A stretch of 36,147 bases of DNA from positions 1 through 36,147 of IMG/VR virus record IMGVR_UViG_3300035682_000098. One strand, written 5' to 3'. Positions 8,968 through 16,435 of this stretch are shown here, in pieces (position 1 is the first letter of the stretch; every line of letters starts with the position of its first letter). This stretch comes from a virus. Both the position numbers and the translations under genes were made by a program. A model generated the notes under the pieces. The model ran no database searches and was not told where the DNA came from. It saw only the letters and a program-made list of their open reading frames with translations.

Positions 8968-10818
8968 TTAAAAAGGAACTTGGTCGGGTGGTAATGGTTC
9001 TAACATATCTCTAATTCCGTAAGATTGTGGTAATGTTTTATCTGAATAAATATAGTCTGCCATATAATCCTTACCGTTAAATAAATATCTTCTTTTGCGC
9101 CTATTCAATTCAAACTCCAAAACTCCTTTCTTACCTACTGTTTTTTGCCGTCTTATTTTTTTAGTATGCAATTCACAATCTTGACTATCAGGTTCTGTTT
9201 GATGGTTAGGTCTATGGTAAATTAATATGTTATCCATTTTATTATTCCACATTGCCCCGTCTGCTATTTCAAATACATCAGGACATGGATAATTCTTTTC
9301 GCCTTGTTCCTTTCTTAATTTATGTGGATGTGCTACAATTACAAAGTAAACGTTATTTGTTTGAGCAAACCTCGTACAATCAGCTAAAAAAGTTTCTAAA
9401 TACTTATCTGACCTTCCAACCTTACTGTAATCGTTCGCCATTTGGTTAAATGGGTCTATTATACAACCGTCTACTTTTTCTTTAATAATTAATTCCAAAA
9501 ATCGTTCTTTTATATATTCAGGTGTAGGTGAAATATCTTTTGGGTAAATATAAAAAATGTGTTTTGAAATCCAGTCGTATGCTTCTTTATATGTCATTTC
9601 AGAAGGTTGATTTGGGTTAAATGTCGTGCAATCGCAACCTAAATATATTTCAGTCATATCGTGATAAAATTCTTCAGCAGGATTATCTTCAGGTGTAAAA
9701 AATGCAAATCTATTACCGCTAATAATTGCCTTCATCAATAGTAGGTATTTTAACATTGTAGATTTTCCATAATTACCTATCCCTGAAAGTAGTGTTATTT
9801 CGCCTCTTTTAAATTTAAAGTAATAATCTAATTCTGGTATTCCTGTACTTTCAACACTTTCATATCCATTTCTAAATATATTTATTGCACGTTCTTTTAC
9901 ATCCTCGCCATAAATAACATCCTTTGGTCTAATATCTTCATTGTAAATGTCAGGGTTAATTTCTTCTTTTACTTCGCTTCGTGTTACCTTATCAACTAAT
10001 ATGTCTTTTTCAAATGCAGCCGACCCGGCTAATTGTCTATTAGCCCTAAAAGCGCTTTTTATTGCTGCATAACATTCTGATTGAGAAAAACTGCTATCTT
10101 GATTTAAAAATGTAGAATCGCAATTTGATTGACAACTTAATTCAGACATACCAAATCTGCAACAAGCAGAAGCTAATTTAAAAATAAAAGCATTTCTTTC
10201 ACCAGTTACAAAAGCATTACCTCTATTTGTAAGCCATTTTAAAATATTATTAAAAATTTCTGAACTATCCTCAACCCTTTCCTTTATCTCAATACGTTCT
10301 GTTTTTTGCGTTTTAAGGTATGTTTTAGCCTCATGGTTGATATAAATACCTTCATCCCAACTTTCGTAGCATACACGACTTGTATTCTTGCCACTATCAT
10401 CTATTTCGGGTAATTCTTTTTTTAATGAATGGAAATGCTCTAAATGTTTTTTGCCGTCTGCTATTTTTACAAGCATCTTTAACCCATTACCACTTGGACT
10501 AACCCAACAAGCATAACAATAGGCTAAAGATTGCAATTCTAATCTTTTATTTGGTACATCATAAATATTGTCAAAATCTAAAACAATAAATCCTGAATGC
10601 TCTATTATACTTGAATCTGTCCTTTCGTTGGTAAATTTACCTGAAAAACATACAGAAGGCAAATTCTTTTTTAAGGTATTTGCACGTTCTTTATCAAGTT
10701 GTTTTCTTATCTCTAATACTTTATCTTTACTAACACCAGTCTTAATCCTTTCAAGCACAAACTCAATAGGTCTATGATATGCTTTCTTGCTGTATATATC
10801 TGAATATATTGTTACCAT
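8968..10818 (-). CDS. Primase-helicase fusion (AEP-type primase + RecA-like helicase)
   Basis: A 616-residue protein joining two replication activities. The N-terminus (about 1-165) looks like the BT4734/VirE-type archaeo-eukaryotic primase domain, with FIVLDFDN (77-84) providing the metal-binding acids and SPSGNGLK (107-114). A PriCT-like helical domain follows (about 188-262). The C-terminal half is a DnaB/RecA-like ATPase with Walker A SGIGNYGKST (345-354) and IIDPFNQMA as Walker B. It should unwind and prime DNA at the fork. No phage DNA polymerase is seen, so the host enzyme probably elongates. Confidence 0.85.
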   Translation of the reverse strand: MVTIYSDIYSKKAYHRPIEFVLERIKTGVSKDKVLEIRKQLDKERANTLKKNLPSVCFSGKFTNERTDSSIIEHSGFIVLDFDNIYDVPNKRLELQSLAYCYACWVSPSGNGLKMLVKIADGKKHLEHFHSLKKELPEIDDSGKNTSRVCYESWDEGIYINHEAKTYLKTQKTERIEIKERVEDSSEIFNNILKWLTNRGNAFVTGERNAFIFKLASACCRFGMSELSCQSNCDSTFLNQDSSFSQSECYAAIKSAFRANRQLAGSAAFEKDILVDKVTRSEVKEEINPDIYNEDIRPKDVIYGEDVKERAINIFRNGYESVESTGIPELDYYFKFKRGEITLLSGIGNYGKSTMLKYLLLMKAIISGNRFAFFTPEDNPAEEFYHDMTEIYLGCDCTTFNPNQPSEMTYKEAYDWISKHIFYIYPKDISPTPEYIKERFLELIIKEKVDGCIIDPFNQMANDYSKVGRSDKYLETFLADCTRFAQTNNVYFVIVAHPHKLRKEQGEKNYPCPDVFEIADGAMWNNKMDNILIYHRPNHQTEPDSQDCELHTKKIRRQKTVGKKGVLEFELNRRKRRYLFNGKDYMADYIYSDKTLPQSYGIRDMLEPLPPDQVPF

Positions 10819-11423
10819 TGGTTATCTTCTGTTGAAACGTATGAAACTTTTTTGTTATCTTGCTTTTTTAGGTTTTCAGGCTTAAACCAAACACCAATTG
10901 CCTTTTGTTTCCAACTCTTTACTTTCTTGCCATTTGTATCTACCCAATTGGATGAATCGTAATAGTTATAAAACTTTATTGCGCTATCTTCCGAATATCC
11001 ATTGCTTGAAAAATAATCAATGACAAATTGTAAAGTTATTTCATTATTATTTACATTATCATTTTTATTATCATTATCCTTATCACTATATTTATCTTTA
11101 TCCTTATCTTTATCCTTATCGGTATTTTTGGTATTTTCAATTATACCAATTTTACCACTCGTATTTTTGGTATTATTTTTATTCCAACGTTTACCAATAT
11201 TTTCCTTATTTTTTTCACATACATTATTATACTTAATTCTATTCCTATCAATGCTTTGCCTTATTGGAATAAATACAATTTTAAGTAATCCTTGCAAATC
11301 AGGCAATATATTTGTTTGTTCATATTCAAATATTGCTTTGATTAACTGCCCTGCTTGGTCATCAGAAAGTGTATCAAACACCTCCTTTAATTCAGTAAAT
11401 AAAATTAATGTTTTTTTTATCAT
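10812..11423 (-). CDS. Replication protein, DUF6291/loader-like
   Basis: A 203-residue protein. The N-terminal region (MIKKTLILFTELKEVFDTLS to about 85) resembles the DUF6291 group found before replication genes. A low-complexity linker of alternating Asp/Lys/Asn (about 100-126) comes from tandem GATAAG/GATAAA units. The C-terminal domain (FVIDYFSSNGYSEDSAIKFY, then WKQKAIGVWF) resembles the tail of DnaD/DnaT-like helicase loaders. It overlaps the primase-helicase start by seven bases, which fits a loader. Its AUG lies in an inverted-repeat element that may control translation. Confidence 0.68.
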   Translation of the reverse strand: MIKKTLILFTELKEVFDTLSDDQAGQLIKAIFEYEQTNILPDLQGLLKIVFIPIRQSIDRNRIKYNNVCEKNKENIGKRWNKNNTKNTSGKIGIIENTKNTDKDKDKDKDKYSDKDNDNKNDNVNNNEITLQFVIDYFSSNGYSEDSAIKFYNYYDSSNWVDTNGKKVKSWKQKAIGVWFKPENLKKQDNKKVSYVSTEDNQW

Positions 11424-11529
11424 GTTGCATATTTTTTATAAAATAGATAGGAGGCAAAGAAATTGCAACATGACTTATCTCGCTTTGAGATTGAAGCCCC
11501 CTATCTATAAATGTCTTTATTTGTATCAT
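11392..11529 (-). CDS. Leader ORF, 45 aa, possibly regulatory
   Basis: A 45-codon frame starting ATGATACAAATAAAG (MIQIKTFIDRGLQSQSEISH) and ending NINFIY. It overlaps the next gene by 32 bases. The first bases, TTGCAACATGATA, are nearly the same as those around the next start codon. It lies within a fold of inverted repeats, so it could be a leader peptide that couples ribosome position to RNA folding, or just a chance frame inside a regulatory RNA. Confidence 0.4.
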   Translation of the reverse strand: MIQIKTFIDRGLQSQSEISHVAISLPPIYFIKNMQHDKKNINFIY

Positions 11530-11536
11530 GTTGCAA
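11420..11536 (-). promoter_or_regulatory. Interleaved-hairpin leader of the replication operon
   Basis: On the RNA-like minus strand there are five blocks in order: A UUGCAACAUGA (11526-11536), B UAGAUAGGGGGC (11496-11507), A' UCAUGUUGCAA (11463-11473), B' GCCUCCUAUCUA (11444-11455) and A'' UGCAACAUGA (11420-11429). A pairs perfectly with A' (11 bp). B pairs with B' over 12 positions including one G-U, which pairs only in the minus-strand RNA. A' can also pair with A'', which contains the AUG of the 203-aa gene. A small hairpin (11477-11491) sits between B and A'. A:A' with B:B' would form a pseudoknot; A':A'' would bury the start codon. Confidence 0.6.
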
Positions 11537-11539
11537 GTA

Positions 11540-11572
11540 CAAATATATAATCTTTTTTTTAAAATGGACAAA
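11540..11572 (-). promoter_or_regulatory. Consensus Bacteroidota promoter
   Basis: Minus-strand TTTG (11569-11572), 21 bases, then TATATTTG (11540-11547): a full match to the -33/-7 consensus. The predicted start of transcription is near 11533-11536, so the RNA would begin at or just before repeat arm A of the leader. The -33 box lies at the end of the 73-aa gene. Confidence 0.65.
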
Positions 11573-14219: not shown

Positions 14220-14483
14220 TTAAAATAAATCAGGGTTAGATTCTAACTGGTCCTCCACTAATCGTTCAACTTCTTTTAATGTCTTATGGTTGTAAATTCC
14301 CAACTCAAATCCGTTTATCTTTAATTTATTGATGGTCTTACACCAATATTCGGTTATCGTTAATTGGTTGGGGTCATCGGGATGTGTCGCAGGATTGTCA
14401 GTTTCAATTCTAAGTACATCGCAAGATACTTCAATCTTTACTCCTTCGCTTTCGCATAATGTTAGTTCTAATGTCTTTTTCAT
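14220..14483 (-). CDS. Hypothetical protein, 87 aa
   Basis: The frame is open to 14534, but the region before the ATG at 14483 carries a promoter-like AACGTATTTTG and a leader motif shared with 7781-7805, so the start MKKTLELTLCESEGVKIEVS is preferred. The protein is acidic with strand-rich sequence (NKLKINGFELGIYNHKTLKE). No family recognised. It may be the true first gene of the operon that continues into the accessory block. Confidence 0.65.
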   Translation of the reverse strand: MKKTLELTLCESEGVKIEVSCDVLRIETDNPATHPDDPNQLTITEYWCKTINKLKINGFELGIYNHKTLKEVERLVEDQLESNPDLF

Positions 14484-16298: not shown

Positions 16299-16398
16299 TA
16301 AAAAAAGCCCATCTATTGGAGGTAGAGGGCTAATTTTGAGGGTTTATATTATTTGATAATATTATAAAGTCAAATTTTCACGTTACCTCCAATAACTT
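16299..16398 (-). ncRNA. Candidate small RNA, about 100 nt, with its own terminator
   Basis: Bounded by a consensus promoter (16404-16435) and an intrinsic terminator (16300-16331). Near its 5' end UAUUGGAGGUA (16384-16394) is perfectly complementary over 11 bases to UACCUCCAAUA (16314-16324), which spans the terminator loop and inner stem. The two foldings exclude each other in part, so it could act as an attenuator; since the downstream methyltransferase has separate promoter signals, a free small RNA is equally possible. No ORF of note lies inside. Confidence 0.5.
16300..16331 (-). terminator. Intrinsic terminator
   Basis: Minus-strand AGCCC+TCTA, 7-base loop, TAGA+T+GGGCT, then seven T (16300-16306). 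Nine base pairs with one bulged base. It would end the candidate small RNA and any read-through from the phosphoesterase gene. Confidence 0.78.
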
Positions 16399-16403
16399 GA
16401 TTT

Positions 16404-16435
16404 CAAAATTACAACATAGGTTTTAATTATGCAAA
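16404..16435 (-). promoter_or_regulatory. Consensus Bacteroidota promoter
   Basis: Minus-strand TTTG (16432-16435), 20 bases, then TAATTTTG (16404-16411): a perfect -33/-7 pair. There is no gene for about 490 bases downstream, which is why the transcript is likely non-coding. Confidence 0.6.

Follow-up and report, generated by a model that had tools for sequence, protein, structure and literature searches.

Interleaved helices ahead of a phage replication operon belong to a class of Bacteroidota phage leaders that likely attenuate transcription

An RNA leader that can fold in alternative ways over the first codon of a replication operon raises the question of what such folding does to the genes behind it and whether it is peculiar to one virus. 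Such a leader (11392–11572) is present in the window, a 36,147-base IMG/VR virus record, in which the coding strand at the leader locus is the minus strand. It lies directly upstream of a gene for a DUF6291 protein, followed by a primase/helicase gene (Table 1). The DUF6291 protein, which shares PHROGs with the gene in the same position in phages hattifnatt and 11b, is likely engaged in replication initiation or loading. The promoter, described in a first-pass annotation of the locus as a full consensus, matched the Bacteroidota-type consensus in full (TTTG, 21 nt, TATATTTG) and scored only 9/12 as a sigma-70 promoter. It can be classed as Bacteroidota type, not sigma-70, and transcription would start just before arm A.

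The pairings reported in the same annotation were also recovered. A and A' form a perfect inverted repeat of 11 nt, and A' is also able to pair over 10 bp with A'', which contains the ATG (11423–11421). The B:B' hairpin, with A' within its loop, interleaves with A:A' and has the single G–U pair described; its length is 13 positions rather than the 12 given. The helix stacking sums were -18.4 kcal/mol for A:A', -24.6 kcal/mol for B:B' and -16.5 kcal/mol for A':A''. Directly after B', there is a short U-rich stretch (11442–11437), which makes a weak U-tract. Because arm A forms no credible hairpin by itself inside the RNA, an H-type pseudoknot whose A:A' helix is longer seems the better depiction of this leader; a pseudoknot had indeed been proposed as a possibility. 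The view that interleaved helices with an A' common to two partners head the replication operon, and are likely regulatory, was upheld.

In 5,000 dinucleotide shuffles of the window leader, any 11-bp perfect inverted repeat was found 14 times and an A–A'–A'' triple of 8 + 7 bp seven times, and no shuffle gave an interleaved helix pair at -40 kcal/mol or better. Plain secondary-structure folding of the leader was only modestly unusual (z = -1.85) because it is blind to interleaved helices. A terminator scan detected none at the window leader; it allows loops of 3–8 nt only, so the B/B' hairpin is undetectable by it. The possibility of an operator motif spread through the window was considered and rejected, sites resembling TTGCAACATGA being present elsewhere at chance level.

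Table 1. Features of the two leaders in the window and of the genes behind the first of them.
Feature	Position	Strand	Remark
Window leader, -33 element TTTG	11569–11572	-	promoter of window leader
Window leader, -7 element TATATTTG	11540–11547	-	Bacteroidota TAnnTTTG; 21 nt from -33
Window leader, arm A TTGCAACATGA	11526–11536	-	putative RNA 5' end; unchanged in L028
Window leader, arm B	11496–11508	-	hairpin 5' side; unchanged in L028
Window leader, arm A'	11463–11473	-	within hairpin loop; partner of A or A''; unchanged in L028
Window leader, arm B'	11443–11455	-	hairpin 3' side; unchanged in L028
Window leader, arm A''	11420–11430	-	second A copy over start codon; one substitution in L028
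45-aa open frame across leader	11392–11529	-	unsupported as selected protein
DUF6291 protein, 203 aa, first operon gene	10812–11423	-	Pfam PF19808, E = 1e-22
Primase/helicase, 616 aa	8968–10818	-	
Second leader, -33 element TTTG	16432–16435	-	
Second leader, -7 element TAATTTTG	16404–16411	-	
Second leader, arm A	16384–16395	-	loop of 5' hairpin GTTA-TTGGAGG-TAAC
Second leader, arm B (AGCCC)	16327–16331	-	
Second leader, arm A' TACCTCCAATAG	16313–16324	-	terminator loop
Second leader, arm B' (GGGCT)	16306–16310	-	

Direct homologues of the window leader in the viral collection represented two alleles only: identical copies in L001 and L030, and a single diverged allele (L028, the same as L029 and L002). 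The latter was 92.6% identical to the window in a stretch of 457 nt reaching from the -7 box through the first 110 DUF6291 codons, with unrelated sequence immediately flanking this stretch on both sides. In the L028 promoter, TTG and the 21-nt spacing are kept and the spacer sequence is different. The first-pass annotation had pointed out a 45-aa frame over the region, which does exist, and had named it as the competing cause of conservation. In its 138 nt, 10 substitutions distinguished the two alleles, none of them in A, B, A' or B' and one in A'', where it costs one end base pair and the adjoining G–U becomes G–C. With eight nonsynonymous and one synonymous changed codons, in a comparison of these two alleles only, the frame does not account for the conservation and was rejected as its cause. 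As two alleles are too few for covariation, scanning was based on topology.

Helicase relatives in viral contigs have operon-head leaders of unrelated sequence and common layout. The layout scanned for comprised a promoter, a 5' segment A, a B-loop-B' hairpin with the complement of A in the loop, a U-rich stretch and a start codon; the scan was anchored on TAnnTTTG promoters, with a cut-off of -30 kcal/mol or better and shuffles as the control. The cut-off was reached by 12 of 302 promoters in the first set, compared with 0 of 302 shuffled ones and 4 of 1,320 random positions. Among the 12, L064 consists of repeat sequence and is not a credible member. Once two more primase families and a number of named phages had been added to the scan, 44 of 2,056 dereplicated sites were retained, whereas the three shuffled sets gave 1, 2 and 0. 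The curated collection contained 50 leaders with 47 distinct loops. Since most leaders were picked by complementarity, a comparison of own and cross loop pairing is biased, and it is the counts in shuffles that allow a fair judgement. The window leader can be regarded as a real member of a group of several dozen related Bacteroidota phage leaders, most of which precede replication genes and many of which have a stable hairpin ending in a classical U-tract shortly before the ATG.

The leader is not universal, and some DUF6291 or helicase relatives have none or a very short one. No match was obtained in the first half of Bacteroides crAss001, which was the part scanned, and only a poor candidate was noticed in B124-14. 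A pattern search with free loop letters added one new copy with the same arms and no further covariation. None of the leaders tested matched an Rfam family, permissive thresholds included. The only Rfam match was a DUF805b RNA (RF02914, E = 5e-12) upstream of a ParB-like gene in Flavobacterium phage morran9-1 (L111 17281–17315, minus strand).

Covariation in related phages, by which the first-pass annotation proposed to judge the helices, was detected in two alignments of related leaders. In the Moomin alignment (n = 6), A/A' read GTGAGAAG/CTTCTCAC, GTGAGACG/CGTCTCAC or GTGGAACG/CGTTCCAC, and all 28 pairs of four helices form in six of six sequences. Double-sided changes affected eight pairs (A:A' helix 3/8, hairpin stems five more), and slid registers were 33–45% paired with zero double changes. 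In the alignment of the compact group (n = 4), with CTCTCAC/GTGAGAG, CTACTAC/GTAGTAG or CCACTAC/GTAGTGG as the arms, the A:A' helix was 100% paired and four of its seven pairs had double-sided changes. Over both alignments, slid registers gave 28–47% pairing and at most one double-sided change. In both groups, a 5' hairpin carries A in its loop and a terminator-like hairpin carries A' in its own, which makes their contact a kissing loop; the terminator loop of the compact group has 11 nt only, seven of them in the kiss. Across groups, the promoter and the topology alone are common, and the arm sequences differ with the pairing kept. The class is invisible to sequence similarity because only complementarity is kept. 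Its structure can be considered near certain, and a role in attenuation is likely. The original observation was confirmed and became part of something larger, and its interpretation was partly supported.

Members of the class were present ahead of replication genes in Flavobacterium phages morran9-1, hattifnatt9-1, snusmum6-1, mumin6-1 and others. In morran and hattifnatt, the leader is followed by a small gene, by one with PHROGs in common with the window DUF6291 protein, and by a primase. Hattifnatt has three leaders with different arms and -7 boxes at 14334, 13299 and 9358, each heading a gene or operon: the helicase gp034, the endonuclease gp041 and the replication genes gp044–046. Flavobacterium phage 11b carries one (A CGGGCAGGT, A' GCCTGCCCG) before genes 62–63, of which gene 63 shares PHROGs with the window DUF6291 protein. 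One leader each was found in the stretches scanned of Cellulophaga phages phi19:1 and phi18:3 and of Flavobacterium phage elemoE. An annotated 47-aa gene, MN812219 gp042 (L111 15853–15996), lies on top of a leader RNA and is probably not a gene.

A second leader was identified in the window itself, between 16435 and 16297. It has a stable hairpin with a U-tract and resembles an intrinsic terminator: seven T (16306–16300, the first being the last T of B') are followed by the ATG (16299–16297). Its kiss would join the 5' hairpin GTTA-TTGGAGG-TAAC to the loop of GCCCTCT-ACCTCCAAT-AGATGGGC. The next long gene after this leader is a DNA cytosine methyltransferase-like ORF about 390 nt further.

A clear A'' was found in four of the 47 leaders, namely the window leader (W1) and the homologous L028, L158 (CCACTACGAAATG) and L089 (CACACGAAATG), and a weaker one in L055. 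Leaders with a clear A'' had weak U-tracts, with 3–4 T in 8, compared with a mean of 6.2 in the others (Mann–Whitney p = 0.003, with a 6-nt cut-off and homologues counted separately in a small, partly non-independent sample). This suggests two alternative outputs, termination of transcription or masking of the start codon. Because the A/A'/A'' layout is the minority and the hairpin that closes the commoner form resembles an intrinsic terminator, the main output of the class is probably transcription attenuation.

These features are best accommodated, with a probability of roughly 0.6, by a conditional attenuator of the downstream operon, in which the terminator loop would be captured by the 5' end of the RNA. 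This reading starts from the promoter motif, topology, covariation and position of the leaders and extends them to termination, polarity and a trigger. With transcription starting just before it, A would emerge first, in many relatives as the loop of a small 5' hairpin. B would emerge next and then A', before B' is made, so A:A' would be able to form before hairpin closure. Once B' has emerged, the B:B' hairpin with A' in its loop, together with the U-rich sequence, would halt RNA polymerase immediately ahead of the first codon, and capture of the loop would decide whether this hairpin takes effect. Where the U-tract is weak, as in the window leader, A' would mask A'' at the start codon and the output would probably be translational. 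There, A:A' must free the start codon, and by extension A:A' is proposed to be the open state in terminator leaders as well. A:A' would thus be the default, and the operon would be turned off when A is taken, most simply by another copy of the leader RNA in trans. Candidates for shifting the balance are such a second leader RNA, a protein, a ribosome or transcription speed. In the compact group with its 11-nt loops, the kiss and the terminator could coexist, and pairing there might promote termination.

Comparison of closely related contigs pointed to exchange of leaders as modules. L089 and L092 share 93% identity as far as the first bases of the transcript and 96% from the beginning of the helicase onwards, and between these flanks the leader and the first gene are unalignable. 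In L048 and L070, the leader and the first gene, or its N-terminal part, are swapped as a block between flanks of 90% and 97% identity. The window and L028 represent the reverse of a block swap, with leader and gene start in common and unrelated surroundings. Within one phage, the mean A:A' energy was -16.2 kcal/mol for own and -6.7 kcal/mol for cross pairing, with single exceptions reaching -13 kcal/mol, which indicates that leaders within one phage are probably mostly orthogonal.

Among known systems, the phage P4 CI RNA appears to be the nearest working model and the pT181 attenuators the nearest mechanism, with neither matched in full. The gene behind the pT181 attenuator is a replication gene. 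Similarly to the leaders described here, pT181-type attenuators have a 5' hairpin, loop contacts and a terminator/antiterminator choice (PMC4878617). However, it is the stem of the terminator that their antiterminator binds, and their antisense is a separate RNA, whereas here the 5' segment A pairs in cis with the terminator loop. Compared by description, P4 CI differs in that many carriers of the present leaders look virulent and usually lack A'', the terminator-like hairpin adjoins the start codon, and a phage may have several mostly orthogonal copies. The C4 antisense RNA of P1/P7 is another self-encoded antisense segment in a leader and can cover a start site. Its leader layout is different, and the Rfam covariance model of C4 gave no match among the scanned leaders up to E = 5.

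Self-antisense control of the P4 CI kind is a possible but doubtful alternative. The B-A'-B' hairpin or a short terminated leader would hit A and A'' of other transcripts in trans, and the accumulating RNA would shut the replication operon, with timing, copy control or the exclusion of related phages as the outcome. CI acts on a replication operon through premature termination, from a leader segment complementary to sites up- and downstream in the same transcript (PMC4825925), and A', complementary to A upstream and A'' downstream, mirrors seqA-CI-seqC. Such a double match was found in the window, L028, L089 and L158, but not in most members, which have no A''. Mostly orthogonal leaders and the block swaps of leader and gene 1 start in L089/L092 and L048/L070 are as expected of specificity modules, although the swaps could merely track the exchange of replication genes, and cis pairing should compete strongly. 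Moreover, no tyrosine integrase was present in most carriers or in the 36-kb window, records that may be fragments, and the Moomin isolates (Lillamy, Hattifnatt and Mumin phages) were isolated as virulent (PMC7077304). In a broader scheme, modular, mutually orthogonal self-kissing leaders would be distributed among Bacteroidota phages, virulent ones included, their terminated products would repress early genes in trans, and exchangeable specificity would set phage exclusion. This scheme is somewhat more doubtful than P4-like control alone.

Control of the operon by its own first protein through binding of the leader fold, a mechanism used by T4 gp32 and ribosomal proteins, is unlikely. The leader and the N-terminal part of gene 1 do travel together between phages, but leaders of one and the same topology stand before gene types that are unrelated, among them a helicase, an HNH endonuclease and replication genes. 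Slightly less likely still is processive antitermination as by the put RNA of HK022, in which the leader would modify RNA polymerase to read through its own and later terminators. The put RNA is a two-hairpin cis RNA placed right after early phage promoters, and the present leaders have a compact two-hairpin fold in that very position. It is not known to be built around a terminator of its own or to form a loop–loop kiss; the fold studied here closes with such a terminator, and its sequences lack the conservation expected of a polymerase-contacting element. That A, A' and A'', three near-identical sites near a promoter, are repressor operators on the DNA whose RNA pairing is incidental is highly improbable, as the relatives keep a strict A-[B-A'-B']-U order and covarying stems while the arms change, and slid registers fail. 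A small-molecule riboswitch, at which the alternative pairings in a leader adjoining the start codon might hint, is the least probable of all. Apart from the promoter, no sequence core that could form a conserved ligand-binding site was shared between groups, complementarity being kept instead, and Rfam gave no match even at permissive thresholds.

Judged from the sequences, the class suggests that early phage genes are widely subject to an RNA switch of a hitherto undescribed kind; no description of it was found in the literature, the coverage of which was incomplete, and one may exist elsewhere. If the attenuator reading is true, early genes in many Bacteroidota phages are controlled by a class of RNA switches for which Rfam has no model. 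As the leader is carried by cultured phages with cultured hosts, termination, polarity and action in trans are directly testable. RNA circuits in Bacteroidota would also gain useful parts from naturally orthogonal loop–terminator pairs.

Two members of the collection stood out by their arms. An extreme one (L038 3127–3300) has 15-bp complementarity between the loop of its 5' hairpin and a CCGGAGG/CCTCCGG terminator loop. L093 and morran (L111), which are unrelated phages, have the arms GTGAGAAG and CTTCTCAC in swapped order, A of one being A' of the other, which may reflect chance or preferred kissing sequences.
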